Of a stretch of DNA of 64,000 nucleotides, positions 8,521 through 60,507 are shown piece after piece (positions within the stretch are counted from its first letter, which is position 1; every line of letters begins with the position of its first letter). The notes below the pieces were generated by a model, which was not told the origin of the DNA, searched no databases, and saw only the letters and a list, made by a program, of their open reading frames with translations. This DNA comes from Saprospiraceae bacterium (GTDB lineage: Bacteria > Bacteroidota > Bacteroidia > Chitinophagales > Saprospiraceae). A program made the position numbers and the translations under genes. The stretch lies in NCBI GenBank assembly GCA_020630435.1, contig JAHDBJ010000012.1:1-64000 (forward strand). The letters run 5' to 3'.

Positions 8521-9651
8521 ATGGAGTTATTGACTATTATATTATTAATTTGTATTCCCCTGATAGTTGCTTCATGGTCACTTCCAGAAAAATGGCAGTT
8601 GATACCTATCGGACTAGCTACCGTATTATTTTTAATAGTTGTTTCTCCAATTTCTTTTTTGATACTGCTAGGAACAATGTTGTTTAGTTATTTTTTACTT
8701 CAAAAATTGAATAACCTTACAACAGCAACGATCATAATCGTTATTCAACTAGCAGCAATTTTTCTGTTTTTCAAACTAGAATATGCTTATTACTTTAATC
8801 TAAGTATGAAGGAGATCATCCCTTTAGGATTATCTTATTATGCTTTTCGACAAATCCATTATGCGATTGAAGCCTATAAAAAGCAACTTCCTAAACACAA
8901 TCTATTAGAATATTTCCAATATTTATTCTTTATTCCTACAATTTTAGTTGGCCCAATTAATAGATTTCAGCCTTTTATAAAAGATATGTATCGCCGTCGT
9001 TGGAACAGTAGCCTATTCTCGCTTGGGCTGGAACGAATATTATATGGATATTTTAAAATTATAGTACTTGGCAATTATCTTTTTAGCCATAAACTTGAAG
9101 GAATAGCGAATGCATTAGAGTCGCAATCATTATGGCTAGCAACCTATATTCGAATGCTTAGATTTACAGGGAATGCTTATATGCAGTTTGCAGGATTTTC
9201 TGATGTGGCGATTGGTCTATCTTTACTTTTGGGTTTTCGAATTATTGAAAATTTCAACTATCCATTTCTCGCACAAAATATCGTTGACTTTTGGCGTAGA
9301 TGGCATATCTCTTTATCAGAATGGTGTCGGGATTATGTTTATTATCCTTTTTTAGGAATGACGAGAAATGGTCATATCAGTATCATTGCCTCTATGTTAG
9401 TGTTAGGACTTTGGCATGAAATATCTTTTAGGTATTTGATTTGGGGAGCTATCCATGCCTTAGCGATTAATATTTGGCACCGTTATAATGGTAGCGTTTT
9501 ACAAAAGAAAATTGGAGCGTATTCATGGTTTCAAAAAGTACTAGGAATATTTATTACAATTCATTTCGTGATGTTGAGTTTTGTGATGATACAAGAACAA
9601 GATATGACCGCTTCATTAGAAGTATATAAAATATTATTTTTATTAAAATAA
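8521..9651 (+). CDS. MBOAT family membrane O-acyltransferase (AlgI/DltB type)
   Basis: A 376-aa polytopic membrane protein with about ten hydrophobic segments. It carries the family signature FWRRWHISLSEWCRDYVYYP near residues 258-277 and the catalytic histidine in LGLWHE (His299). Proteins of this type move acyl groups from a cytoplasmic donor across the membrane to an SGNH partner. It is shorter than the usual 450-500 aa, lacking the C-terminal helices and the aromatic C-terminal tail that many MBOATs have. A separate 45-aa membrane protein starts 4 bp after the stop and may supply this part. Confidence 0.92.
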   Translation: MELLTIILLICIPLIVASWSLPEKWQLIPIGLATVLFLIVVSPISFLILLGTMLFSYFLLQKLNNLTTATIIIVIQLAAIFLFFKLEYAYYFNLSMKEIIPLGLSYYAFRQIHYAIEAYKKQLPKHNLLEYFQYLFFIPTILVGPINRFQPFIKDMYRRRWNSSLFSLGLERILYGYFKIIVLGNYLFSHKLEGIANALESQSLWLATYIRMLRFTGNAYMQFAGFSDVAIGLSLLLGFRIIENFNYPFLAQNIVDFWRRWHISLSEWCRDYVYYPFLGMTRNGHISIIASMLVLGLWHEISFRYLIWGAIHALAINIWHRYNGSVLQKKIGAYSWFQKVLGIFITIHFVMLSFVMIQEQDMTASLEVYKILFLLK

Positions 9652-9655
9652 AAAG

Positions 9656-9793
9656 ATGTATAGCTTTTTAAAAGATAAGTTTGGAGAAAGAGCTGCTACT
9701 ATATTGATATTACTATGGTATTTTTTGTTGCTCAATCTCATTATCTTATTTTCGCATCACGAAGAAGGGATGTTTCGTTATTTGGATTGGTAA
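9656..9793 (+). CDS. 45-aa membrane microprotein of the MBOAT operon (DltX-like by architecture)
   Basis: ATG at 9656 through TAA at 9793, 4 bp after the MBOAT stop, encodes 45 residues. A charged N-terminus (KDKFGERA) precedes one hydrophobic helix (about 16-32: ILILLWYFLLLNLIILF). The tail HHEEGMFRYLDW puts an F-x-Y-x-x-W aromatic motif at the extreme C-terminus. In Gram-positive dlt operons the microprotein DltX has one helix and a C-terminal FxYxF motif whose Tyr is implicated in acyl transfer between MBOAT and SGNH proteins. Gene order, size and C-terminal Tyr here suggest the same role. Homology cannot be shown from so short a chain. Confidence 0.7.
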   Translation: MYSFLKDKFGERAATILILLWYFLLLNLIILFSHHEEGMFRYLDW

Positions 9794-9977
9794 TATTAAT
9801 GTTCAAGTTGGGAGCCTTACTTTCTTAAGTTATGTTTAGTATAACCAAGCAAAAACAGGTGTCAAATGCGTTTTTTTGTTTTCGACTAGAAAGACATATT
9901 ACATTTATTTTTTGCATTTTTTTAAAAAAAATATTACCTTCATCGGCTTATATTTTCAATAAAAATAAAATCTAAAA

Positions 9978-11447
9978 ATGAGTACTAAAACCATAGCCCT
10001 ACCTCCTGCTAAAAATTTTATAAATGGTCATTTGGAAAATGGTCTATCCAAGACCTTAGATGTTTTCAATCCTGCTTCAGGCGAAGTTATTGCCAAAGTG
10101 CCTTTATCAGGAAAAGGAGAATTAGATAAAGCTGTTGAAGCAGCTAAAGCTGCTTTCCCAGCATGGTCAAGCCAAACATTAAAAGAACGAGTTCAGGTGT
10201 TTTTTAGATTTAGAACATTACTAGAACAAAATTTACAGGAATTAACGGAATTGGTATCTATAGAAAATGGAAAGATTTACAGCGAAGCGAAAGCGGAAGT
10301 AATGAAAGGTATAGAGCTTTGTGAGTTTGCTTGCTCGCTCCCTCAAATCGTTAATGATGAGATACAAGAAGTTAGTAAAGGGGTAGAGTGTAGAACCTCA
10401 CATTGCCCGCTAGGAGTAGTGGCTTGTATTACGCCATTTAACTTCCCACATATGGTGCCTTTATGGACAATACCCAATGCGATTGCTCTAGGAAACTGTA
10501 TGATTTTAAAACCATCAGAGCAAACGCCCTTGAGTGCCGTTCGCATCGCAGAATTGTTGAAGGAAGCAGGTCTACCAGACGGTGTTTTAAATATTGTAAA
10601 TGGGGATAAAGAAATTGTAGAAGCAATTTGTGATCACCCTGAAATTGAAGCGGTTTCTTTTGTTGGTTCTACTAGAGTAGCTAAAATCGTTTACCAAAGA
10701 GCAACATCAAATTTGAAGCGTTGTGTAGCACTGGGAGGAGCAAAAAACCACTTAATTGTCTTACCTGATGCACATACAGAGATGGCTGCGACCAACATTG
10801 CTGCCTCTATGTCGGGCTGTGCTGGACAACGGTGTATGGCAGCATCGGCTATGGTCGGAGTTGGTAAAATTGACCATATTGTAGAAAGGTTATGTGAAGT
10901 AGCTCGTGCTATCGTACCAGGTGATTCTTTGGGGTCTGTCATTTCTAAAGAAGCGAAAGAACGTATAGAAAGATATATTACAGAAGCAGAAGAACAAGGA
11001 GCAAAAGTATTAGTAGACGGACGAAATACAACCGTAAAAGGTAAAGAAGAGGGGTATTATGTAGGGGCAACAGTAATTGATTATGTAAAACCAGAAATGA
11101 AAATTGCAAAAGAAGAGGTCTTTGGCCCTGTGTTGTCTATCCTTAGAACAAATGATATAGATGAAGCAATACGTATTGAAAATAGTTCTAACTATGGGAA
11201 TGCATCTTCCGTCTTTACCCAAAATGGGAAAATGGCAGACTACGTAATGGAAAGAGTAAGTGCTGGAATGGTAGGGGTCAATATTGGAGTACCTGTTCCT
11301 AGAGAACCATTTTCATTTGGAGGATGGAATGAATCAAAATTTGGTGTTAGCGACATTACAGGAAAAAGTTCTGTAGAGTTTTGGACAAAATTGAAAAAAC
11401 GAACGACTAAATGGAATCCTGAAGCGTGGACAAATTGGATGAGTTAA
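9978..11447 (+). CDS. mmsA: Methylmalonate-semialdehyde/malonate-semialdehyde dehydrogenase (CoA-acylating)
   Basis: A 489-aa member of the CoA-dependent ALDH branch. It converts methylmalonate (or malonate) semialdehyde to propionyl-CoA (or acetyl-CoA) with CO2 release. Diagnostic segments: ITPFNFPHMVPLW, VSFVGSTRVA, the catalytic cysteine in GCAGQRCMA (the general-base Glu of ordinary ALDHs is missing, as usual in this family), and the C-terminal FSFGGWNESKFG...FWT..KKRTTKW signature. The aminotransferase 69 bp downstream would supply its semialdehyde substrate. A weak -7-like box (ttaccttc, near 9935) precedes it. Confidence 0.93.
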   Translation: MSTKTIALPPAKNFINGHLENGLSKTLDVFNPASGEVIAKVPLSGKGELDKAVEAAKAAFPAWSSQTLKERVQVFFRFRTLLEQNLQELTELVSIENGKIYSEAKAEVMKGIELCEFACSLPQIVNDEIQEVSKGVECRTSHCPLGVVACITPFNFPHMVPLWTIPNAIALGNCMILKPSEQTPLSAVRIAELLKEAGLPDGVLNIVNGDKEIVEAICDHPEIEAVSFVGSTRVAKIVYQRATSNLKRCVALGGAKNHLIVLPDAHTEMAATNIAASMSGCAGQRCMAASAMVGVGKIDHIVERLCEVARAIVPGDSLGSVISKEAKERIERYITEAEEQGAKVLVDGRNTTVKGKEEGYYVGATVIDYVKPEMKIAKEEVFGPVLSILRTNDIDEAIRIENSSNYGNASSVFTQNGKMADYVMERVSAGMVGVNIGVPVPREPFSFGGWNESKFGVSDITGKSSVEFWTKLKKRTTKWNPEAWTNWMS

Positions 11448-11516
11448 TTTTCAGTTGAAGAGGATAGAATGAAGCGGGAATTTATTATTTTTTTAATATT
11501 AAAATTATTATAAAAA

Positions 11517-12875
11517 ATGTCAAGCAGTGTAGTATTACAAAATGAAGTAGAGTCAATTTTACAAAATAATCTCAATCATACTTTTTTCTCTTGGTCAAAA
11601 CAAGGAGGACTGAATCCCATCAATGTAAAATCTGCAAATGGGGTTTATTTGCACGATTATAGTGGTAAACGTTATATAGACTTTACTTCTCAATTGATGA
11701 ATGTAAATATAGGACATGGTAGACAAGAAGTAACGGAAGCAGTAGCACGGCAGATGCAGGAAGTCTGCTATGTTGCACCAAGTATGACCACAAAAGTAAG
11801 AGGGGAACTAGGGAAAAAATTAGCGGAAATTACACCTGGTAATTTAAAAAAGACCTTCTTCACACTAGGAGGAGCTGAAGCAATAGAGAATGCCATCAAG
11901 TTGGCTCGATTAGTTACAGGCAGACATAAAATCGTAACACAATACCGTTCATATCATGGGGCAACGATGGGGGCAATTTCAGCAGGGGGCGATCCTCGTA
12001 AATTGAATGTCGATTCTAACCAAGTGCCAAATATCGTTCATGTTGAAAATCCCTACTTTTACCGTTGTCCGTGGTACAGTAGTACGTGGGAAGAATGTAG
12101 TGAACGAGCCGCTGCCAATATGGAAGCGGTTATAAAATATGAAGGACCTAATAATATAGCGGCGATTATTTTAGAGGGCGAATCAGGTTCTTCGGGTTGT
12201 ATTAAATATCCTCCGAGTTATTGGCAGAAAGTAAAAGCAATAGCAGATAAATATGGTATTCTAATGATATGCGACGAAGTGATGTCTGGATTTGGTCGAA
12301 CAGGCAAATGGTTTGGTGTGGACAATCATGGTGTTGTACCTGATATTATGTGTATTGCTAAGGGTTTAACTTCGGGTTATCTTCCGCTAGGAGGAATTGT
12401 GGTATCTGATACGATCGCACAAAAGTTTGAAAATCAATATTTGCCATTAGGATTAACATACTCTGCTCATGCGGTTTCTTGTGCTAGTGCTTTAGCTGTT
12501 CTAGATATTTATGAAAAAGAAAATTTGATCAGTCAAGCTGTTGAAAGAGGAAGGTACATTGATAAAAAAGTAGCGGAATTGATGGACAAACATCCTTCGA
12601 TAGGAGACTGGCGCAATACAGGAATGCTAGGTTGCCTAGAATTGGTTAAAAATCGGAAGACGAAAGAGCCAATGGCACCTTGGAATGCAACGAAAGCAGA
12701 GATGCACATTATGAGTAAAGTGGCAGCTAAGATTCGAGCATTAGGAATGTTCACTTTCGTGAAGTGGAACTTTATTTTTATTGCACCACCATTGATCATT
12801 AGCGAAGCTCAAATTGATGAAGGAATAGATATTATATCTCAGGCAATATCTATTGCGGATGAACATTGTGTATAG
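11517..12875 (+). CDS. Class III aminotransferase (omega-amino acid:pyruvate type)
   Basis: A 452-aa PLP enzyme of the ornithine/omega-aminotransferase fold. Motifs: FFTLGGAEAIENAIKLAR, YRSYHGAT, ICDEVMSGFGRTGKWF with the cofactor-contacting Asp, and the Schiff-base lysine in MCIAKGLTSGYLPLGG. Together with mmsA it fits transamination of beta-alanine or 3-aminoisobutyrate to semialdehydes, the last steps of reductive pyrimidine or valine catabolism. Taurine:pyruvate aminotransferases look similar, so substrate is uncertain. A 32-bp perfect palindrome follows the gene. Confidence 0.85.
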   Translation: MSSSVVLQNEVESILQNNLNHTFFSWSKQGGLNPINVKSANGVYLHDYSGKRYIDFTSQLMNVNIGHGRQEVTEAVARQMQEVCYVAPSMTTKVRGELGKKLAEITPGNLKKTFFTLGGAEAIENAIKLARLVTGRHKIVTQYRSYHGATMGAISAGGDPRKLNVDSNQVPNIVHVENPYFYRCPWYSSTWEECSERAAANMEAVIKYEGPNNIAAIILEGESGSSGCIKYPPSYWQKVKAIADKYGILMICDEVMSGFGRTGKWFGVDNHGVVPDIMCIAKGLTSGYLPLGGIVVSDTIAQKFENQYLPLGLTYSAHAVSCASALAVLDIYEKENLISQAVERGRYIDKKVAELMDKHPSIGDWRNTGMLGCLELVKNRKTKEPMAPWNATKAEMHIMSKVAAKIRALGMFTFVKWNFIFIAPPLIISEAQIDEGIDIISQAISIADEHCV

Positions 12876-12896
12876 AATTAAAAATAAACAACTGTT

Positions 12897-12935
12897 GAAG
12901 TTATCAGAGAAATTTCTCTGATAACTTCCTATTTG
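12897..12935 (+). terminator. Perfect 32-bp palindrome, probable terminator
   Basis: Bases 12897-12928 are fully self-complementary (gaagttatcagagaaa followed by its exact reverse complement), followed by ctatttg. It lies 22 bp after the aminotransferase stop and 13 bp before the next ATG. The T tract is weak, so a protein-binding palindrome is an alternative. Confidence 0.6.
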
Positions 12936-12940
12936 ATAAA

Positions 12941-13378
12941 ATGATGAAAATAACCTCCATATTTTATCCTTTTATATTTATAACTTTGTATGCTTGTCAA
13001 AATACCAATTCAAAAAGGCAAGCTGGAAGTGTTGGGAAAAACTGCATGGAACAAGTTATTGTCGCAGATGATAAATTGGGGAAAATTCGAAATCATGCTT
13101 GTGAAAAACAATCTTTAAACAAAACCATTGAAGATTATACTTTAGGTCTAGAACAATTGGATTTTACAAATTGTCCCAACCATTTTACACTTGCTTTTAA
13201 GGAACATATAGCAGCTTGGAAAGCGATACAACCCATCACTACAAATTATACAACATTAAGAGGAGAAATGCATGATTTGTTTAAACAAATCGAAAGCGGA
13301 AAAGACAGTGTAATCTTTAAACAAAAAGTCAAAGCGGTATGGGATACATGGTATATTATTGAAGCAACAATGAAATAG
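12941..13378 (+). CDS. Small secreted lipoprotein of unknown function
   Basis: 145 aa. A signal peptide ends in the lipobox LYAC (Cys19 if translation begins at the first of two adjacent Met codons). The mature part is mostly helical and contains four more cysteines (GKNCME, NHACEK, TNCPNH), possibly disulfide-bonded, and a C-terminal amphipathic helix rich in Lys. I recognise no family. It converges tail-to-tail with the ClpB-like gene, with only 2 bp between stops. Confidence 0.7.
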   Translation: MMKITSIFYPFIFITLYACQNTNSKRQAGSVGKNCMEQVIVADDKLGKIRNHACEKQSLNKTIEDYTLGLEQLDFTNCPNHFTLAFKEHIAAWKAIQPITTNYTTLRGEMHDLFKQIESGKDSVIFKQKVKAVWDTWYIIEATMK

Positions 13379-13380
13379 GC

Positions 13381-16300
13381 TTACACTTTTTGTGGAATCA
13401 TACCTCCTGCATAAATTAATAATTTGAACTCACTTGGCGTAATTTTAAAATCAGTCGTAAATCCTGTTCGTATGTCGGTCATAGTGTTTTTATTATCATA
13501 AACACGGATAACTTTGGAGAAAGAATGTGTTTTTGATTGCTCACCTTCTAGTCTTAATGTAACTTTTATAGGTAAGGGGTTTTCATGAGGTAGGTAAAAC
13601 ATATGCATTCCAGCTTCTGATTTACAAATACCATATAAATTATAACCTGTAGCAGTTATTTGTTGAAGCGGTTCATTGATTTCACATTGTATGTTGAAAT
13701 GCTCAAAGAAGGTTTTGTATATTTTTAATAAGGCTAAAATTTCATCATCTCCTTTATTGGTAATACAAGATTGCATTTTTAAAGTGATGGTTTCGATGTG
13801 ATTATCTATAAAACCTTCCGCAAAATATGCTAGGAAACTAACGTTTAAATAATTGTCAATAAACTCTGTATGAATACTATCAAATTGGGTAGGAGCAAGG
13901 CGATAAAATTCTATAATTTCTTTTAGACCTTCTTTTTGAAAAAGTTGATCTTTAATCGCATCACGCTCATTAAATCGACTAGGAAAAAGCCGTTTCCATG
14001 TGCTGCCTTTTAAGCGAAAAGGGATGGCTGGGCCTCCCCTAAAATGTTGACTTCTAAATCCTGCAAGAAGGTTTTGAATGTTTTCTTTATGTATGGTAAG
14101 TTGGTCTTTAAACCACCAATACTCCCAATTGTCATCATCATCTCCAGAAAAATCAGAATATGCCATGATCATTTGGTCATCTTGTTCATCTTTTATCCTA
14201 TCCTCTATTGTTATCAGACGTTGGAGTAATTGATTGTAAAACTGTCCACCTTTTTTTTCATCAGGTAACTCTGGAAGCCATTCTTCTTCGATTTGTTCCA
14301 CAAAATCAAGTGTTGTAATCTTAGGTCTAAGCCTACCGTTTTCATACTCAATATCAAAAATAATAGGACTCTTAGAGTATGAGCCTATCAATTGATCTGC
14401 GGAAAGACTAGTCAAATCTTTTTCTATTTGCCTTTTCAAAGCTCGCCCACCCATTTTAGAGTCAAAACCTCTAGTGGCGACCCATTCTAAGGCTTCACCC
14501 GATATATTGAGAATAGTAGTGCGTCGAACAAAACCATCACGAGTTAATAAATCATTAATTTGGAGTTTCGCTATATTTTGAATATGCTCCAATTTTAAAG
14601 AATTAAAAATAATGATTTCATCAATCCGATTGACAAACTCAGGACGGAATCGATTTTCAACAGCTTTTTTGTAAATAGCCGCTTCATTTTCATCGGAATT
14701 TCCTAAACTAATGGAAGAGCCTACATCTCTTGCACCAACGTTGGACGTCATAATGATGATGATGTTAGAAAAATCAACTGTTCTACCTAAACTATCTGTT
14801 AGCCGACCATCGTCTAAAACTTGTAGTAATAAATCGTGGATATTAGGATGAGCTTTCTCAATTTCATCAAATAAGACAACTCCAAAAGGGCGATAACGAA
14901 CACGACCAGTCAAAATACCTTCAGGATTATAAAAATCGCCAATTAATCGTTGACTAGAGTAAGGATCAATATATTCATTCATATCAAAACGAAGCAACTG
15001 TTCATTATTACCCATCAGATACTCATTAATAACTTTAGCTGCTTGAGTTTTTCCTACGCCTGTCGGTCCAATGAAAAGGAATGAAGCAAGGGGTTTATCA
15101 GGATTGGTTAACTTTGCTTTGATGTTGTGTACCACTTTTGCTAGGGCATCTACAGCATCTGGCTGGCCAATTAACTGAGTAGAAATTTTATCCTTGACTT
15201 CTGATTTTTTAAAAATATAATCCTCATCAAAAATTTCTTGACTTAAGCCACTAAAGGCTTCAAATTCTTTTTTGACTTCTTGTACATCAATGTTTTGATA
15301 CTTGTACTTTGTTGCCAATTGACGTAGCAATTTCATTACACTACCTGGTAGTGCCTTCCTTTTTAAATAATTGCGTTGAATATTAAACAACTGGTATATG
15401 GCATGAGTAGAAATAATACAAGAATTTTCTAGTTCCAATAACTTGCGTTGTTGCAAGACCATTTGAGCGGCTGTTTTTCTATTGGCTTCATTAACTCTTA
15501 CAATCTGAAAGAGATCAGCAAATCGACGGTCTTTATCTTGTACGATTTTCCATTGTTCAGGTGTGGCTATAAGAATAATGCCTATTTTCCGTTTTTCAAG
15601 ATAAGGTTTAAGGACATCACTCAGGGTCATATCATTTTGTGCAGACTTTCCAATGCGTAAGAGCGCAACAGGATTGTCTATCATGATTTTATCTGTCTCA
15701 TCCAAGCGGACACCATGAATTTTATTCCGACGGGTTTTGACATATTTTAAAATCGACTCAAAGCGTTTTTGCCATTGCCCGACAATGCTCATTCCTGCAA
15801 TAATACGATTGGGGTCTATTCGCCAGATTTTTTGAAGGTGATAGGCTTCTCTATGAGCATTTTGACCAACGTATCTATAAATGACTTCTTCTAAGAGCGA
15901 ATGTTTTCCAACCCCGTCTTCTCCTATTATAACAATAGGTGTATTTTCTTCTTTATAAATAATTTTAGAAATTCTATTAACTAATGCTTCTTGGTAAAAA
16001 GCACTTTTTAGACCACTAGGATATAGCTCATTAAGATCTTTACCAACTTTTACAATTTCCGTTGCTCCATTAAATTCCATATTGGAAGCCATAGAAGAAA
16101 AGAACCAAGGCATTACTTGTCCTTCAAATTTGAATTGCCCTTTTTTAACATTAATATTATAGGAGAAATGGCTAATAAAGTCTCCTTTTACAGCCACAAA
16201 GGGGGTTAAATTAACGGTCTTGTTATTATTACGTTTTTTCTGTTCTCGTAAAAGTTTTTCGATGACAAGGCGACTACCATTTTTGACGTTATATTTGTGT

Positions 16301-54081: not shown

Positions 54082-54756
54082 ATGCTAAAGAATTTGCGAT
54101 CACTTTTTATTATTGATGAAACACCAGATAAGAAAAAAGAAGATAGTAGCATCAAAAAACAAACAACAACTCCTGTGGTAAAAAAGGGTACAGTCAAATC
54201 TTCTCAGACCAAATCTGTGCCGATAGTTCCATCAAAAGGAAAAGTTAATCCTAAATTTATGGACATTTTGTTTAAAGCGATGGAAAAGAATAATCTCGAT
54301 GGATTTGATTATCTAGAATTCAAGCAATCTCTAAAATCTTTAAGTAAAATGCCAATGGATGAAGCAACACGATTTAAATCTGCTTTTGCAATGGCACAAA
54401 CTATGGGAGCTACTCCTGCTAAATTGAAGGAAACAGCGGAATATTATCTTACCGTTTTGGGACGAGAAAAAAAACAGTTTGAAGAGGCTGTTACTCAACA
54501 AAAATCTAAACAAATTGGGAATAAAGAAGCAGAGATTAAGCAACTCCAAAAAGTAATTGTTGAAAAGAAAAAGCAAATAGCGCAAATTCAGAAAGAAATA
54601 GAAGAACATGAAAAAAAGATGAAAGCTAATAAAGCTCACATTGAAAAGGCGACAGTAAAGGTTACTTCTACTAAGAATGATTTTATGGCATCTTATGATG
54701 CTTTGACAGGGCAACTTAAACACGATATTGAAAAAATGACAAATTATCTAAAATAA
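54082..54756 (+). CDS. Cytoplasmic coiled-coil protein of the PspA-like/SBP-OmpA cluster
   Basis: 224 aa, no signal peptide. Residues 1-55 are a basic, Ser/Thr-rich linker (KKQTTTPVVKKGTVKSSQ). Residues 55-130 form a small helical domain (FMDILFKAMEKNNLDGFDYLEFKQ, FKSAFAMAQTMGA), and 130-224 are a long coiled coil (KEAEIKQLQKVIVEKKKQIAQIQ) that would self-associate or bind the next protein. First gene of a same-direction cluster, 74 bp before the membrane PspA-like gene. No named family recognised. Confidence 0.7.
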   Translation: MLKNLRSLFIIDETPDKKKEDSSIKKQTTTPVVKKGTVKSSQTKSVPIVPSKGKVNPKFMDILFKAMEKNNLDGFDYLEFKQSLKSLSKMPMDEATRFKSAFAMAQTMGATPAKLKETAEYYLTVLGREKKQFEEAVTQQKSKQIGNKEAEIKQLQKVIVEKKKQIAQIQKEIEEHEKKMKANKAHIEKATVKVTSTKNDFMASYDALTGQLKHDIEKMTNYLK

Positions 54757-54830
54757 ATTATAATTTGAAAATCGAAATTTTGTAACCTTTAGAGGGAACA
54801 AGGTTTCAAATATCAAAATATATTCGTTAT

Positions 54831-55859
54831 ATGGAAATGAAAGATTTTAAGCCAAAATCTTTTTGGCAAAGACCAGAAGGAACAACAGGTGCTATAATAG
54901 GACTTGGACTAATTGCTGGTGCGGGATATTTACTATACAGTTCAGGAGCGTTAATTGCCACGATTTTAGCAAGTACACTTTATACAGGAATTATGCTAAT
55001 GGCATTAGCTGCGCTGGTATATATGGTGCTTGATCCTAAAATGCGAAATCTAGTTTGGTATATGTACAAAAGTGTCATGCGTTGGATAACTGGATTGTTT
55101 GTACAAATAGACCCTATTGGCATACTGAAATCTTATGTGGATGATTTGAAAGGTAATCTCCGGAAGATGAATAAGCAGATAGGTATTCTAAGAGGACAAA
55201 TGCACAAACTCAACGAAATTATTAAAAATAATAAACGAGAGATTGAGAGTAATTTATCTTTAGCAAGTAAAGCCAAAGACAAAAATAAAAAAGCCATTAT
55301 GGTGCTAAAGTCCAGAAAAGCTGGACGCTTAAAGGAATCCAATATGCGCTTGGAGGATTTATATAAAAAAATGGAAGTACTATATAGAGTATTGACAAAG
55401 ATGTATGAAAACTCTGAAGTATTGTTGGAAGACATTAAGGATCAGGTCATGGTCAAAGAACAAGAACGTAAGGCGATAATGGCAAGTCATTCGGCTATGA
55501 AATCGGCGATGACTGTCATATCAGGTGATAAAGATAAAAGAGCGATGTTTGATATGGCACTAGAAGCGATTGCAGAGGATGTCAGTCAAAAAGTAGGAGA
55601 AATGGAACGGTTTATGGAAATGTCTTCAAGTTTCATGGATTCTGTAGACTTACAAAATGGTGTATTCGAAGAAGAAGGATTGAAAATGCTAGAAAAATGG
55701 GAAAAAGAGGGAGTTTCTTTAATCTTAGGAGAGGAAAAAAATACCCTTTTATTAGATGCTGAAGACGATACCAATGTACTGGATTTGAATCAACCTGTTA
55801 AAGAGAAAGTCAGAGCAGATAATCATAAAAATCAATACGACAATCTATTTGACTTTTAA
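54831..55859 (+). CDS. Membrane-anchored PspA-like coiled-coil protein
   Basis: 342 aa. Two membrane helices near the N-terminus (about 20-38 and 43-66) are followed by a helical core (about 90-270) in which DPIGILKSYVDDLKGNLRKM, the alternating helix-turn pattern and a C-terminal MERFMEMSSSFM resemble PspA/IM30 (ESCRT-III fold) proteins. The tail is acidic and ends in an aromatic DNLFDF. Ordinary PspA has no membrane helices. It may form or tether membrane-bound polymers on the cytoplasmic side. Relationship to PspA is judged by eye. Confidence 0.65.
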   Translation: MEMKDFKPKSFWQRPEGTTGAIIGLGLIAGAGYLLYSSGALIATILASTLYTGIMLMALAALVYMVLDPKMRNLVWYMYKSVMRWITGLFVQIDPIGILKSYVDDLKGNLRKMNKQIGILRGQMHKLNEIIKNNKREIESNLSLASKAKDKNKKAIMVLKSRKAGRLKESNMRLEDLYKKMEVLYRVLTKMYENSEVLLEDIKDQVMVKEQERKAIMASHSAMKSAMTVISGDKDKRAMFDMALEAIAEDVSQKVGEMERFMEMSSSFMDSVDLQNGVFEEEGLKMLEKWEKEGVSLILGEEKNTLLLDAEDDTNVLDLNQPVKEKVRADNHKNQYDNLFDF

Positions 55860-55883
55860 GAATAAAAAAGAAAATTTTCAATT

Positions 55884-55918
55884 AAAGGTACTTGTCTCGA
55901 TTCAAGTATCTTTTCTTT
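55884..55918 (+). terminator. Hairpin between the PspA-like and SBP-OmpA genes
   Basis: An 11-bp stem, aaaggtacttg (55884-55894) / caagtatcttt (55903-55913), with a following ttctttat. It could separate or attenuate transcripts inside the cluster. It is 24 bp past the PspA-like stop. Confidence 0.65.
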
Positions 55919-55946
55919 ATATTAAATACCTTTCAATTTTTTTAAA

Positions 55947-57545
55947 ATGGCAAGAAGACTAACAACTTTTTCAAAGTTATTGATTACTGTATTAATCGTT
56001 GGAGCATTATTTTGGGGATTTATGCAACTCAAAAAACAAGGTACCTTTGACGGTTTAAATAATAATTCAGATACTACGGATGTAGTCGATAATAGTAACT
56101 CAAATAATAATAGCAACAACTCAAACACCACTACCAATTCTAATACCTCTTCAAGTGGAGATGCGGATATTAAGGTTCAAATATTTACATGGGGAGGATA
56201 CGCTCCAGGTTTATATTTTAATGAAGGAGCAGAAGCATCTACAAAATCAAGGTTTTACAAGGATTATGGACTTAAAGTAGAATTTATACTAATTGATGAT
56301 TTTGATGGTTCTAGAAATGCTTGGATTGCGGATGAAGTAGATTTACTAGGGCAAGAAGTGACCGCCATGAATACAGAAATGGAAAAACTAGGAAAGTACA
56401 ATCCTAAAATTCCAATGCAAGTCGATTGGTCTAGAGGAGGAGATGCAGTAATTGTACGTCGAGAAATCAAAACTGTAAATGATCTTCGTGGACAAAAAGT
56501 GGCTTATGCCCCTTTTACACCTTCTGAGACGTTTTTAATATTTATGTTAGAATCAGCAGGGATGACGATCAAAGATATCACACCAGTTGAAGTACAAAAT
56601 CCTATTGATGCAGCTACTGCATTTAAGGGAGGAAAGGTTGCTGCAGCCGTTGTTTGGAGTCCTGATGATATAATTGCAACCAGAGATGTACCAGGTTCTA
56701 GAGTATTGCAAACAACTAGAGAAGCCTCTAACATTATTGCTGACGTTTTCATGGTAAAAGATAAATTTATCAGAAATAATAGAGAAAAAATGCACCAATT
56801 CTACGAAGGGTGGATGAAAGCAGCAGCAGAGATTAATACGAATAAATCGAATAAGGAAAAAGCAGCAAGAATACTAGGTCAAACAACAGGTTTACCAACT
56901 GCTGATGCAATGGGGATGATTGATAATGTCTATTTTACAACACATGGTGATAATTTAAATTTCTTTGGTCAAAACCCTAACTTTAAAGGTATGAAAGCAG
57001 AAGCACTTTATACCAAAATGGGAAGAGAATTTGAAAAACTTAATAGGGCACCTACCAATCGTCCTACATGGCGCCAGATGGCATATACAGGAGCAATTTC
57101 TTCGGCTGAATTATCAGGAGGAACGCACAATGCTGAAGGTCAAAAAGACTTTAAACCAGTTACAGAAAAAGTAAAATCACTTCCAGCAATTGCTACCAAA
57201 CCTGTAACCATCAATTTCCCTACAGGAAAATTCCAGTTAAGTGAAAATGCTAAAACAATCATTGATTTACAGTTTGCTGAAATTGCTCGTTCTTATGCAA
57301 ATACAAGAATTAGAATTGAAGGCAATACAGATAATGTGGGGTCAAGAGCTAACAACAAGTCCTTATCTCTTAAAAGAGCCAATGCTGTTGCTAAATATCT
57401 GAAAGAACAATATCAAATGAGCCCTAATAGATTGATTGTCGTAGGAAATGGCCCAGATAAGCCTGTCGCTGGCTGTGAAGATAATGCTAGTTCTGATTGT
57501 AAAGCTAAAAATAGAAGAACGGACTTCCAACTGGTAGCGGAATAA
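55947..57545 (+). CDS. Inner-membrane-anchored solute-binding domain fused to OmpA domain
   Basis: 532 aa. An uncleaved N-terminal helix (about 9-28) and a Ser/Asn linker precede a periplasmic binding domain of the NitT/TauT type (about 72-380) with IFTWGGYAPGLYFNEGAEA, VNDLRGQKVAYAPFTPSETFLIFMLESAG, VAAAVVWSPDD. The C-terminal OmpA-like domain (about 415-532) carries the peptidoglycan-contacting TDNVGSRANNKSLSLKRANAVAKYL. It bridges the inner membrane and the cell wall. Proteins with this fusion exist in databases as phosphate ABC SBP/OmpA, though the ligand is not established. Its own terminator follows. Confidence 0.82.
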   Translation: MARRLTTFSKLLITVLIVGALFWGFMQLKKQGTFDGLNNNSDTTDVVDNSNSNNNSNNSNTTTNSNTSSSGDADIKVQIFTWGGYAPGLYFNEGAEASTKSRFYKDYGLKVEFILIDDFDGSRNAWIADEVDLLGQEVTAMNTEMEKLGKYNPKIPMQVDWSRGGDAVIVRREIKTVNDLRGQKVAYAPFTPSETFLIFMLESAGMTIKDITPVEVQNPIDAATAFKGGKVAAAVVWSPDDIIATRDVPGSRVLQTTREASNIIADVFMVKDKFIRNNREKMHQFYEGWMKAAAEINTNKSNKEKAARILGQTTGLPTADAMGMIDNVYFTTHGDNLNFFGQNPNFKGMKAEALYTKMGREFEKLNRAPTNRPTWRQMAYTGAISSAELSGGTHNAEGQKDFKPVTEKVKSLPAIATKPVTINFPTGKFQLSENAKTIIDLQFAEIARSYANTRIRIEGNTDNVGSRANNKSLSLKRANAVAKYLKEQYQMSPNRLIVVGNGPDKPVAGCEDNASSDCKAKNRRTDFQLVAE

Positions 57546-57571
57546 CTTCACGCATCAAAAGAAATTTTAGG

Positions 57572-57612
57572 AAAATCGATTGTTATATTTTATATAGCAG
57601 TCGATTTTTTGG
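57572..57612 (+). terminator. Terminator after the SBP-OmpA gene
   Basis: The 8-bp stem aaaatcga (57572-57579) / tcgatttt (57601-57608) with inner A/T pairs (tgttata with tatagca) forms a long hairpin followed by tt. It separates this gene from the two following ones. Confidence 0.7.
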
Positions 57613-57695
57613 GGCAAGTGGTTACATATTGTCCTCAAAGTATATTTACTATATAGAGAATATTTTTTATTAACTATCATTAACCTAAATCAAGC

Positions 57696-58886
57696 ATGAA
57701 AAAAATTAGCTTATTAGTAGTATTGACCTCTATTTTATTAAATGTATCAGCTCAAATAGATTTTGAAAAAGGATACTACATCAATAATAATGATGAAAGA
57801 GTGGAATGTTGGATCAAAAACGTGGATTGGAAAAATAATCCTAAGAATTTCAAATACAAACTTTCTTCAAATGGAGAAACCCTAGAAAATAATATCAGAC
57901 AAGTAAAAGAATTTGGAGTTGATAGCACACTTAAATATATAAGGTTTGAAGGTAATGTAGATACATCGGGAGTTAAAACAAATCATTTAAGTTACCAACG
58001 AAAGCCAGAATATAAAAAAGATATACTTTTTTTGAAAGTCCTAGTAGAAGGCGAGGCACAGCTTTATAAATATGAAAAGGATCTAATCACTAAGTTTTTC
58101 TTTAAACAAGGAAATAATAAAATTGAAGAACTTATTTACAAAAAGTATATTAGAGAAACAAATGGAATACGAAAAAATAATGCTTTCAGACAACAACTCA
58201 AAAATGGATTAGTATGTGAAGGTATTGTGAAAGATTTTTTGGATAACTTAACATATAATCATAAAGAGCTTATCACGGTATTTAGAACATATAATCTATG
58301 TAAAAATCCAAATACTTTAAATATTTTAGTACCCTATCCAAGTGAAAAACTACTCAATATTTCTATTCGACCTGGTATCAGTTATTCGGACTTATCTTTA
58401 TTGATAGGAGGCATTCAAGTAGTAGACTTTGGACCACAGATTGGTGTACGCTTAGGAGCTGAATTTGAATTTATTTTCAATTTTAATCGAAATAAATGGG
58501 CTGCTATAGTTGAACCCGCCGTACATTATTATAAAAATGAATCCGTATTTGGTAGCCAAGAAGATCCTATTGATGTAAACCATATCTCTCTAGAAATCCC
58601 GATTGGGCTACGACATTATTTTTTTTTAAATGAAAAAAATAAAATTTATATCAATGCATTATATGTATTTGATTTACCTGTCAGTTCCAAAGTTGATGTC
58701 GCAGATATAAACCTAGAAGGAGGACTTAGTACTAGCCAATCATTCGGAATAGGTTATTCTTTTAAAGATAAATTTGAACTCGAAGCCAGATATGGTACAG
58801 TAAGAGATTTTCATAAAAAAATATATACTCTATGGAGAGCAGATTATTCTATTGTGGAGTTAATATTTGGATATAGGCTTTATTAA
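57696..58886 (+). CDS. Hypothetical outer-membrane barrel protein (PorT-like)
   Basis: 396 aa with signal peptide (1-20, ending VSAQ). The N-terminal part (21-215) is a globular domain with INNNDERVECWIKNVDWKNNP; the C-terminal half (220-396) has amphipathic strands of a beta-barrel and ends on an aromatic strand (ELIFGYRLY). No enzymatic motif. Located between two parts of the SBP-OmpA/permease cluster but with its own flanking terminator, so involvement is unclear. Confidence 0.72.
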   Translation: MKKISLLVVLTSILLNVSAQIDFEKGYYINNNDERVECWIKNVDWKNNPKNFKYKLSSNGETLENNIRQVKEFGVDSTLKYIRFEGNVDTSGVKTNHLSYQRKPEYKKDILFLKVLVEGEAQLYKYEKDLITKFFFKQGNNKIEELIYKKYIRETNGIRKNNAFRQQLKNGLVCEGIVKDFLDNLTYNHKELITVFRTYNLCKNPNTLNILVPYPSEKLLNISIRPGISYSDLSLLIGGIQVVDFGPQIGVRLGAEFEFIFNFNRNKWAAIVEPAVHYYKNESVFGSQEDPIDVNHISLEIPIGLRHYFFLNEKNKIYINALYVFDLPVSSKVDVADINLEGGLSTSQSFGIGYSFKDKFELEARYGTVRDFHKKIYTLWRADYSIVELIFGYRLY

Positions 58887-58962
58887 ACTGTAACCAAACT
58901 ACCATGTCCCGTTAGGTTAATTGAAGAATTATAGATTTATAACAATTAATCAAACAACAAAA

Positions 58963-59322
58963 ATGGAAAAATTTTTAGTATTCTTACTACTATTTATTCT
59001 AGGATGTGAAAGTGAACCTAAATACCTTGATTCAGATTTAGTCGGCATTTGGAAAAGCATTGAATGGAGAGATATTACGAATGATAAAGAGATAAATATT
59101 AAAGTAAAATTTGAATTTGAACCAGAAAATAGATACTTAGGAGCGTACAATAAATCATTTGAAAAAGGAGAATACTGGGTGTCAGGAGTATATTTATATA
59201 CCATAGAAGATGGAAAAGCAGAAAAAAAAGTGAAAATAGAAAAGTTAAGCAAGGACACGTTAATACTAGGTATGAATCGAGCTGGGGTATTAGAACAAAT
59301 AAAATTGATCAGAAGGAAATAA
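58963..59322 (+). CDS. Small lipoprotein, lipocalin-like
   Basis: 119 aa from the ATG at 58963, chosen because it directly precedes a signal peptide with lipobox LGC (Cys14). A 14-codon extension would put polar residues before the signal peptide. Mature part is one beta-barrel-like domain (LVGIWKSIEWRD, KVKFEFEPENRYLGAYNKSFEKGEYWVSGVYLYTIEDG), like Bacteroidota lipocalin-like lipoproteins. Possibly cotranscribed with the gene before (76 bp). Confidence 0.65.
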   Translation: MEKFLVFLLLFILGCESEPKYLDSDLVGIWKSIEWRDITNDKEINIKVKFEFEPENRYLGAYNKSFEKGEYWVSGVYLYTIEDGKAEKKVKIEKLSKDTLILGMNRAGVLEQIKLIRRK

Positions 59323-59448
59323 AACCTAGATAATCTCATACAGTAAGTGCTTAAGAGTAGACGTATTCTTTTAAAAATAAATTGTCTAGTCATTCAAATA
59401 GTTGTATTTTACAATCCTATTTTGAAATATCTGTAAAAACCACAACTA

Positions 59449-60507
59449 ATGTCCTTATTTGAATTGAGAGGAACACTCAAACCATTAACTAGCACAATTT
59501 TAGGTGTTAGTGGCTTTTTATTATTAGTATTAATATGGTTTTTAGTAACAGCAGGAGCGAATCCTGTAGTTTCTTCAGGAATATTACCTTCTCCAGGACA
59601 AGTATTAAGGGCTTTTGTAGATTTATACAATGATAATGAAGTTATTAGAAATACCTGTTTGTCACTAGGACTAAACATTGCAGGTTATGTGGAAGCAATT
59701 GTGATTTCTATCCCCTTAGGTTTTGCGATAGGTCTTTTCCCCTTTTTTAGAGGTCTTTTTCAACGACCTGTCGATGCTATCCGATATGTTCCCTTAACAG
59801 CGGTTACAGGCTTATTTATTATCTGGTTTGGTTTGGGGACTGGTATGAAAGTACATTTCTTGGCTTTTGGTATCTTGATTTATCTTCTACCCATTGTTGT
59901 ACAAAGAATAGACGAAGTTCAGGACGTATACTTAAAAACGGTCTATACGCTAGGGGCGAATCCATGGCAGACCATTCGTTCTGTTTATATTCCTTCTGTT
60001 ATATCAAGGCTATCAGATGATATCCGTGTCCTTACGGCTATCTCTTGGACCTATATTATTGTGGCAGAGGGCTTTGGTAGTCAGGGTGGGCTAGGTGCAT
60101 TAATTTGGAGGGCTGGACAACGACAGGGTAGGGTGGATAAAGTTTTTGCCTTATTGATAATCATAATTCTTATCGGACTTCTACAGGATAAGATATTCCA
60201 AAAACTGGATAAAGAGTTTTTCCCTCATAAATATCAAAGTAAAGTAAAGTACGGGAAAATTGAGAAGGATAGTACTTTTGAAATGCTCCTTAATTTTGCT
60301 TTAGATATTTTGATCTGGCTCGCCTTAGCGATATACGTTGTCTTCTTAATTAATGAATTCGTACCATTTATAACGGATCAAGGCTTGCTCACCCACTTGT
60401 TCGGAGATACGGCTCCTCTTATCCATATTATAGTTCTAGGCGTTATTATTTATAAAATAAAGAACCTTATTGTTAAAAGACAAACAGCAACTCCTGTAGT
60501 GACTTAA
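59449..60507 (+). CDS. ABC transporter permease with C-terminal membrane extension
   Basis: 352 aa. The first 265 residues are a NitT/TauT-type permease: FLLLVLIWFLVTAGANPVVSSGILPSPGQVLRAF, then the EAA-type loop VYTLGANPWQTIRSVYIPSVISRLSDDIRVLTAISW. After residue 280 come two or three extra hydrophobic segments (LNFALDILIWLALAIYVVFLI and LIHIIVLGVIIYKIKNLIV) absent from standard permeases of about 260 aa. No ATPase gene is adjacent. Together with the upstream SBP-OmpA gene it makes a permease-SBP pair. The transported substrate is unknown. Confidence 0.85.
   Translation: MSLFELRGTLKPLTSTILGVSGFLLLVLIWFLVTAGANPVVSSGILPSPGQVLRAFVDLYNDNEVIRNTCLSLGLNIAGYVEAIVISIPLGFAIGLFPFFRGLFQRPVDAIRYVPLTAVTGLFIIWFGLGTGMKVHFLAFGILIYLLPIVVQRIDEVQDVYLKTVYTLGANPWQTIRSVYIPSVISRLSDDIRVLTAISWTYIIVAEGFGSQGGLGALIWRAGQRQGRVDKVFALLIIIILIGLLQDKIFQKLDKEFFPHKYQSKVKYGKIEKDSTFEMLLNFALDILIWLALAIYVVFLINEFVPFITDQGLLTHLFGDTAPLIHIIVLGVIIYKIKNLIVKRQTATPVVT

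Follow-up and report, generated by a model that had tools for sequence, protein, structure and literature searches.

A PspA-like membrane protein linked to a putatively wall-tethered, importer-type ABC system in Saprospiraceae, and a candidate docking anchor shared by its alternative partners

PspA relatives remodel membranes. Together with ESCRT-III proteins they shape and protect membranes, but little is understood of what couples them to specific cargo in bacterial cells. The closest described systems are operons in which PspA and TM-Snf7 homologs occur with an AAA+ ATPase; longer versions also encode an ABC (ATP-binding cassette) ATPase, a permease and a PBPB-OmpA protein, and a third coiled-coil gene is named in a Bacteroidetes case (Ravi et al., 2024; PMC11237479). 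That paper also proposed a link to peptidoglycan for the PspA/AAA+/ABC operons. Judging from its passages on these operons, the linkage of PspA-like, solute-binding protein (SBP)-OmpA and ABC genes is therefore not new. Here we analyze such a linkage in a Saprospiraceae bacterium (NCBI GenBank assembly GCA_020630435.1). The window is the whole stretch analyzed, 64,000 nucleotides of contig JAHDBJ010000012.1, and the locus, encoding a coiled-coil protein, a membrane-anchored PspA-like protein, an SBP-OmpA fusion and an ABC permease, occupies its positions 54,082 to 60,507.

The locus lies on contig C47 of a 5.12 Mb genome in 70 contigs with a completeness score of 100% (C, G, L and f numbers are our handles for contigs, genomes, loci and families). 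The order on the + strand is the coiled-coil partner (CC, 54082), the PspA-like protein (PSPTM, 54831), SBP-OmpA, a beta-barrel-like gene, a lipocalin-like gene and the permease. As an earlier note on this DNA had stated, four open reading frames (ORFs), at 54082-54756, 54831-55859, 55947-57545 and 59449-60507, all run in the same direction (+). Their features are as follows, with the basis of each in brackets.

54082..54756, + strand: CC, 224 residues (ORF; family alignments; AlphaFold2 model)
54831..55859, + strand: PSPTM, 342 residues (ORF; relatives; PF04012 matches in the family; hhalign)
54882..55031, + strand: PSPTM residues 18-67, two hydrophobic segments (model, hydropathy, family rows)
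55104..55673, + strand: PSPTM residues 92-281, helical hairpin of PspA/Vipp1-like type and the helices after it (model, fold search, alignment)
55947..57545, + strand: SBP-OmpA fusion, 532 residues (ORF; domain profiles; alignment)
55947..56048, + strand: N-terminal signal anchor of SBP-OmpA with the shared motif RLTTFSKLLIT (anchor profile, hydropathy)
56169..56951, + strand: NitT/TauT-type (NMT1/THI5-like) solute-binding domain, about residues 75-335 (domain profiles; solved relatives)
57216..57488, + strand: OmpA domain, residues 424-514, T-D-x-x-G-x4-N-x-x-L-S-x-x-R-A (profile, alignment)
59449..60507, + strand: ABC permease (BPD_transp_1), 352 residues, full length (ORF; profiles; alignment)
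60223..60504, + strand: permease residues 259-352, a C-terminal extension particular to this family, containing two hydrophobic segments (alignment, hydropathy)

Co-occurrence was surveyed in 99 relatives (100 genomes with the window's own), with strong matches limited to E<=6.9e-53 for SBP-OmpA, E<=1.8e-72 for the permease, E<=2.1e-112 for the ATPase and E<=0.001 for PSPTM. SBP-OmpA was found in 34 relatives, the permease in 35, the ATPase in 35 and PSPTM in 57. Permease and ATPase orthologues occupy an identical set of 35/99 relatives, so that a cognate ATPase is present in 35/35 relatives with the permease. The one relative with SBP-OmpA and neither of these is G010, where the contig breaks off within the permease, and two genomes (G028 and G048) have permease and ATPase without SBP-OmpA. 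PSPTM accompanies SBP-OmpA in 33 of 34 relatives; in G012 the PSPTM match is limited to 39 residues where a contig stops, and in the 34th, G060, SBP-OmpA itself is cut at the contig start. The survey that the earlier note had suggested bears out co-occurrence in this direction and not in the other, PSPTM also being found without SBP-OmpA.

Neighboring genes were counted in loci from named genomes. These are the best 80 of 530 confirmed PSPTM matches, hence the loci nearest to the window's PSPTM protein, and 51 of the 80 extend at least 6 kb downstream of PSPTM and were used for the counts. The two sets overlap, Flavilitoribacter nigricans NZ_PDUD01000001.1 corresponding to G056:C1; the ORF calls drop overlapping frames, and locus tables can miss genes, as happened with PSPTM in L056. 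CC is encoded no more than 600 bases upstream of PSPTM in 44/51 loci and SBP-OmpA within 600 bases downstream in 43/51. The permease follows within 6 kb in 23/51, and the ATPase lies within 6 kb in the same 23. The conserved order is CC-PSPTM-SBP-OmpA, often followed by permease and ATPase. These data support, at the level of gene order and co-occurrence, the view that CC, PSPTM, SBP-OmpA, permease and ATPase form one functional unit, which the earlier note had proposed for the first four. Among the closest PspA-like matches listed, contigs come mostly from Saprospiraceae, Lewinella and their kin; cultured carriers include F. nigricans and Lewinella cohaerens. A plasmid search gave no match.

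Since the relatives encode the ATPase, the "permease without an ATPase" of the earlier note describes the window's genome and is not a property of the system. Walker A and LSGGQ, as we take these segments to be, are readable in the relatives' ATPase sequences, and the nearest curated model, below its cut-off, is a taurine importer subunit. With such a complete importer-type ABC set in relatives, the earlier suggestion that the genes serve something other than nutrient import is not supported. That note would have abandoned its proposal if other genomes regularly paired the permease with an ATPase gene and had no PspA-like gene there; elsewhere the ATPase does stand consistently beside the permease, and the PspA-like gene is present as well. 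A permease without an adjacent ATPase was considered for four loci (L165, L184, L190 and L198) and ruled out by tblastn, which places an ATPase next to the permease in all four.

The SBP-OmpA protein has the architecture read earlier, an N-terminal anchor, an NMT1/THI5-like domain and an OmpA domain. The pattern [RKQ]LTxx[SAG][KR] occurs in the first 70 residues of every full SBP-OmpA protein that the loci encode (85 distinct sequences), with a strict RLT in 78/85. Solved relatives of the binding domain are SsuA and the nitrate- and taurine-binding proteins, and its best curated models, below cut-off, are putative urea and aliphatic sulfonate. By these nearest models and relatives, and by that of the ATPase, candidate substrate types would be putative urea, sulfonate, taurine and nitrate. 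The OmpA motif TDxxG(x4)NxxL[ST]xxRA, aligned with the solved OmpA domains 3td3 and 5u1h, is present in 85/85. In the OmpA/Pal test, the window's protein was found to have D462 and R477, 15 residues apart in TDxxG...RA, and we take the D and R of this motif to be the peptidoglycan-binding residues. The protein is full length and retains the family-invariant residues. Its membrane anchor and intact peptidoglycan-binding motif agree with the earlier suggestion of a binding protein fixed to the wall. Two variants were observed. In one, from G021 (L143:1670-3202), the binding domain has 29% identity with that of the window (E 3.6e-34; NMT1 2.5e-7) and is preceded by a TIR-like domain at the N-terminus (TIR_2 2.9e-5, below cut-off), without anchor or OmpA; its partner being TIR-like, not OmpA, it was left out of the SBP-OmpA count. 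The other, in G099 (L070:5265-8085), is a tandem pair of SBP-OmpA-related genes, the second with a stop within the six-frame match.

PSPTM is, on sequence comparison, a coil distantly similar to PspA/Vipp1 that follows two hydrophobic segments. The window's protein itself has no PF04012 match, and none was found in its genome at E<=0.001. PF04012 was matched by 10 of 16 aligned family members (E<=0.1), the window's protein not among them; the best match has E 4.2e-8 and 33.5 bits, against a Pfam cut-off of 33.9. Because no PF04012 match exceeds the curated cut-off, we call the protein PspA-like and do not file it as PspA_IM30. The PspA-like core noted earlier is upheld by these family matches and by two further comparisons: hhalign of the family with a PspA of the same phylum (91%, E 1.1e-6), in a register that pairs the DP motifs, and a search with that PspA (a PspA_IM30 protein), which finds two PSPTM proteins directly (6.8e-7 and 4.1e-6); coiled coils can inflate such scores. 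The DP motif of PSPTM is residues 94-95, at the start of the hairpin. The AlphaFold2 model (59 sequences, mean pLDDT 75.8) draws residues 18-67 as one hydrophobic helix, followed by helices 69-90, 95-150, 154-223 and more. Its residues 71-227 are colinear with residues 2-157 of Vipp1 7o3w, and residues 92-212 superpose on PspA 4whe 19-142 with a root-mean-square deviation of 2.1 Å over 121 residues. Foldseek gave no match to the model at E<=0.001, and three matches to sequences of solved structures (E 0.11 to 0.4) were taken as chance. In 19-residue windows, the best hydropathy reaches 1.6 for the first segment in 68/74 family rows and for the second in 74/74. From this family hydropathy, residues 18-67 would form two membrane helices as the earlier note had it, with the qualification that in the window's own protein only the second segment passes 1.6.

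CC was described earlier as a soluble coiled coil, and our results agree. The protein consists of a short N-terminal helix (MLKNLRSLFI), a variable linker, a conserved helical domain and a long coil, with no hydrophobic segment at the hydropathy cut-off used. The AlphaFold2 model (mean pLDDT 82.4) has helices at 57-69, 77-87, 94-107 and 112-223. The protein gave no Foldseek match at E<=0.001 and no useful fold match, which doesn't show a new fold. Its sequence matches fall within the coil and resemble generic coiled coils.

The CC-PSPTM pair is also found with other partners or without a transporter. The window's genome holds a second such pair, with no transporter beside it, on C69 (locus L051). 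When 132 distinct PSPTM proteins were placed in a FastTree, 0/18 members of the C69 clade have a nearby SBP-OmpA, compared with 86/108 in the window's clade (supports 0.54 and 0.65). The same genome also has a second, unlike set of SBP-OmpA, permease and ATPase (L144:8104-11633, G000:C7), whose binding protein bears the same anchor as the window's. We considered whether the C69 pair serves this C7 set and rejected it, C7-type binding proteins occurring in 4/100 genomes and PSPTM in 58/100. In L055 a transporter-free pair lies, by eye, downstream of SbcD/SbcC-like genes (L055:3341-8279); gene pairs similar in size to these SbcD/SbcC-like genes are seen in L032, L053, L059, L063 and L067, and the large one alone in L061. 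In three genomes of another family of the same class (f29), PSPTM adjoins a different SBP-OmpA of 592 residues, with CC in two of them; L265 and L266 also have a permease-like gene, and L264 and L266 one resembling an ATPase. The 592-residue L264 protein shares 35% identity with the C7 protein from the window's genome, and both are at most distant relatives of the window's binding protein. In two f30 genomes, CC and PSPTM are followed by a protein of 355-361 residues with a weak Ppx/GppA match. PF02541 is weak in 5/6 members of this Ppx-like group (best 1.1e-4; below the Pfam cut-off in the member shown), and the comparison with exopolyphosphatase 1t6d gave E 0.0013. Two cysteines are invariant in six aligned Ppx-like proteins (A9: L296, L295, L305, L309, L262 and L263); they would be in keeping with a disulfide-bonded periplasmic domain and are odd for a Ppx/GppA fold.

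These alternative partners share with SBP-OmpA a predicted N-terminal anchor, RLTxxSKLLI, which is weak in the f29 genomes. A profile of 27 positions, built from the start of SBP-OmpA with the other partners excluded, was run against the first 60 residues of the 2519 ORFs in the loci examined. With 95 SBP-OmpA rows set aside (two partial SBP-OmpA are listed), the best matches after SBP-OmpA were the two f30 Ppx-like proteins (5.4e-8 and 7.2e-8), three C7-type proteins (1.8e-7, 7.5e-7 and 3.3e-4) and the f29 proteins (7.9e-4, 1.9e-3 and 0.025). The first unrelated ORF scored 0.044, which makes the f29 anchor borderline. A fourth C7-type protein (L142) has no anchor-like start, and its genome, G095, has no PSPTM match. 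A wider profile that included the alternative partners was run on 16 whole genomes. Its 12 matches up to 2.2e-8 are all SBP-OmpA, C7-type or Ppx-like, with Ppx-like proteins newly found in G160, G254 and G052; weaker matches (from 3.1e-4) include the f29 proteins (0.006, 0.07 and 0.34) and a Ppx-like protein in G019 (0.009). The anchor profile is also matched by 11/11 further Ppx-like proteins from PSPTM-positive genomes (weakest 2.3e-4), and the Ppx-like protein of the PSPTM-negative G076 lacks the anchor.

The Ppx-like protein and SBP-OmpA tend to exclude each other. The former occurs in 15/99 relatives: 12/24 with PSPTM and no SBP-OmpA, 1/33 with both and 2/42 without PSPTM. Among PSPTM-positive genomes this gives a Fisher p of 3.7e-5, and within the same family at completeness >=90% (12/21 vs 0/27) a p of 4.2e-6, kinship being ignored in both. 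On the PSPTM tree, whose resolution is poor (8 of 48 inner branches starred), SBP-OmpA undergoes about 11-12 changes and the Ppx-like protein about 8-9; only 2 independent pairs fall on supported branches, a number with which a paired exclusion test cannot reach significance. The Ppx-like gene lies beside PSPTM in f30 and not in those loci of the family that were examined. Both partners are absent from twelve PSPTM-positive relatives, of which two (G028 and G048) have permease and ATPase.

The permease matches BPD_transp_1 with 57.8 bits (cut-off 26.4), and its best curated models, below cut-off, are SaoP and then taurine TauC. The window's protein keeps the family-invariant residues. A TLGAxxWQT region, which we take to be the EAA loop contacting the ATPase, is invariant or nearly so in 16 aligned sequences. 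The additional C-terminal hydrophobic segments reported earlier are confirmed: all 16 members examined have at least one, and the window's permease has two. In L066 (5893-7587) and L243 the permease has 563-564 residues; that of L066 carries about 200 extra residues after its first membrane helix, by eye cadherin-like beta repeats. A haem-oxygenase-fold protein of 227 residues lies between permease and ATPase in L167 (13043-13726) and L239 (8616-9299), where profiles were checked (CADD and BesC are the top NCBIfam models, both short of the cut-off), and genes of 227-228 residues occupy the same position in L145, L146, L148, L174 and L241. This CADD/BesC-like gene in some relatives hints at small-molecule chemistry.

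Two genes that the earlier note did not mention lie between SBP-OmpA and the permease:

57696..58886, + strand: beta-barrel-like protein, 396 residues (profile below Pfam cut-off)
58921..59322, + strand: lipocalin-like small protein, 133 residues (profile below Pfam cut-off)

The first has no relative among the 2519 ORFs and is probably an insertion outside the unit. The second has one relative there, in L055 and far from its PSPTM gene, and is probably also outside the unit. Other genes occupy this interval in L183, L186 and L192. The next gene after the permease, for a MauG-type peroxidase, runs in the opposite direction.

Building on the domains, gene order, co-occurrence and shared anchor established by sequence comparison, we propose a wall-tethered, importer-type ABC system organized by a PspA-like platform with interchangeable partners, a proposal to which we give an even chance. 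The binding protein would be held at one end by its inner-membrane anchor and at the other by the OmpA domain bound to peptidoglycan, as topology and motifs suggest. The NitT/TauT-like domain between them could hand the permease a small ligand. In relatives the permease would be powered by the dedicated ATPase, whose gene is here lost or in an assembly gap. PSPTM, a coil held by two membrane helices, and CC may together make up a platform at the cytoplasmic side of the membrane, where it would gather or stabilize the transporter and its wall contact. Elsewhere the same platform would serve other partners with the same N-terminal anchor, and since those partners carry it, the anchor is probably the docking part. 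More generally, and somewhat more tentatively, CC and PSPTM may be a partner-swapping platform of Bacteroidota that docks proteins through RLTxxSKLLI, with the domain behind the anchor setting the function, and with the SBP-OmpA/ABC set (in two kinds) and the Ppx-like protein replacing one another between genera.

Several observations weigh against these proposals. PSPTM occurs without SBP-OmpA in 24/57 PSPTM-positive relatives, which points to a wider role than that of a simple transporter subunit. The permease-ATPase pair lies away from the SBP locus in several genomes (on the same contig in G056, on another in G031), and in G099 ATPase and permease are on different contigs. The Ppx-like protein of G087 has the anchor, and its genome has no PSPTM match. 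In the fold search with the PSPTM model, BAR domains (Z up to 11.2) score above Vipp1/PspA (Z 9.1-9.6), so fold alone does not decide the identity of PSPTM, and a Z below about 13 may for helical bundles mean merely a common arrangement. The orthologous ATPase, 63-73% identical among relatives, is missing from the window's genome: the best-scoring of 35 matches is 39% identical and none exceeds 41%. Among 36 genomes with a strong permease match it is the sole one without the ATPase, an exception in which the gene is lost or in an assembly gap. The transporter half might accordingly be decaying here, with the ATPase gone and two genes inserted between SBP and permease, a reading that we consider doubtful but worth serious attention. 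That no orthologue is found in a 70-contig assembly scored 100% complete, and that genes 57696 and 58921 separate SBP from permease, would fit it. SBP-OmpA and permease are full length with family-invariant residues, however; an assembly gap is possible, L183 and L192 keep the ATPase despite intervening genes, and in G099 it is on another contig.

The remaining alternatives concern what the genes do together. They could form an envelope-stress module, in which the wall-tethered binding protein and permease sense the membrane-wall gap or a ligand released by damage and the PspA-like coil polymerizes to stabilize the membrane. The PspA-like core, the double tether suggested by the SBP-OmpA sequence, the retention of PSPTM without SBP-OmpA and the pairing with Ppx-like proteins elsewhere are consistent with this; the complete importer ABC set retained in relatives argues against it, and we regard it as unlikely. 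Still less probable is the earlier note's suggestion that the genes move a lipid or another part of the envelope, in which case the PspA-like coil would open or bend the membrane. The unusual C-terminal helices in 16/16 permeases and the membrane remodeling by PspA relatives would suit such a transporter, but the best curated models are of small-molecule types, all below cut-off (urea/sulfonate; SaoP, TauC; taurine), solved relatives of the binding domain bind sulfonates, nitrate or taurine, and none of the best 25 of 38 binding-protein matches is a binding part of an MCE, Lpt, Lol or Mla system. It is hardly credible that the coiled-coil pair has nothing to do with the transporter and is its neighbor by chance: the 24/57 relatives without SBP-OmpA would allow it, but conserved gene order already contradicts it, with SBP-OmpA close downstream of PSPTM in 43/51 loci and another kind of SBP-OmpA adjoining PSPTM in another family of the class.

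The proposed platform offers a set without an AAA+ ATPase, in cultured bacteria, with a permanent anchor on the PspA-like protein and a motif that marks likely partners. If the anchor is indeed a docking signal, partners could be found by sequence and the contact would be directly testable. In the literature searched we did not find a version without AAA+ and with an anchored PspA-like core, the shared anchor, the alternative Ppx-like partner or a second SBP-OmpA/ABC kind beside CC-PSPTM, although the supplementary tables of Ravi et al. may list some of these.

The system resembles the operons of Ravi et al. (2024; PMC11237479), as their passages on these operons describe them, in its PspA-like gene, permease, ABC ATPase (in relatives) and binding-OmpA protein. 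It differs from that description in that no AAA+ gene was found, the PspA-like protein carries its own membrane helices, and alternative partners have one common anchor. No two-domain AAA+ ATPase was found beside PSPTM genes when the AAA+ protein of L267 was used as a single query (2519 called ORFs, overlapping frames dropped, E<=1e-5); besides itself, it matched one ORF in L160, a permease-ATPase locus. L267 itself (9009-15050, same phylum) encodes PspA, a small coil, a 294-residue membrane protein, two other genes and the AAA+-domain protein, an arrangement resembling the AAA+ type as described there, and no relationship was found between PSPTM and the 294-residue protein. With PspA/Vipp1 (IM30) of the ESCRT-III superfamily, PSPTM shares the hairpin register of its predicted model, the DP motif at the hairpin start and weak but repeated PF04012 matches; its N-terminal membrane helices, the missing PF04012 match in the window's protein and the equal or better fit of BAR domains by Z set it apart. 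The Ppx-like partner is similar to Ppx/GppA phosphatases in its weak PF02541 and 1t6d likeness and unlike them in its RLT-type N-terminal anchor and its cysteine pair. With TauABC/SsuABC importers, the binding domain, the permease and the relatives' ATPase match such families, below the cut-offs of single curated models. In contrast to those importers, the binding protein here is membrane-anchored and ends in OmpA, the permease has extra C-terminal helices, and the genes are linked to PspA-like ones.

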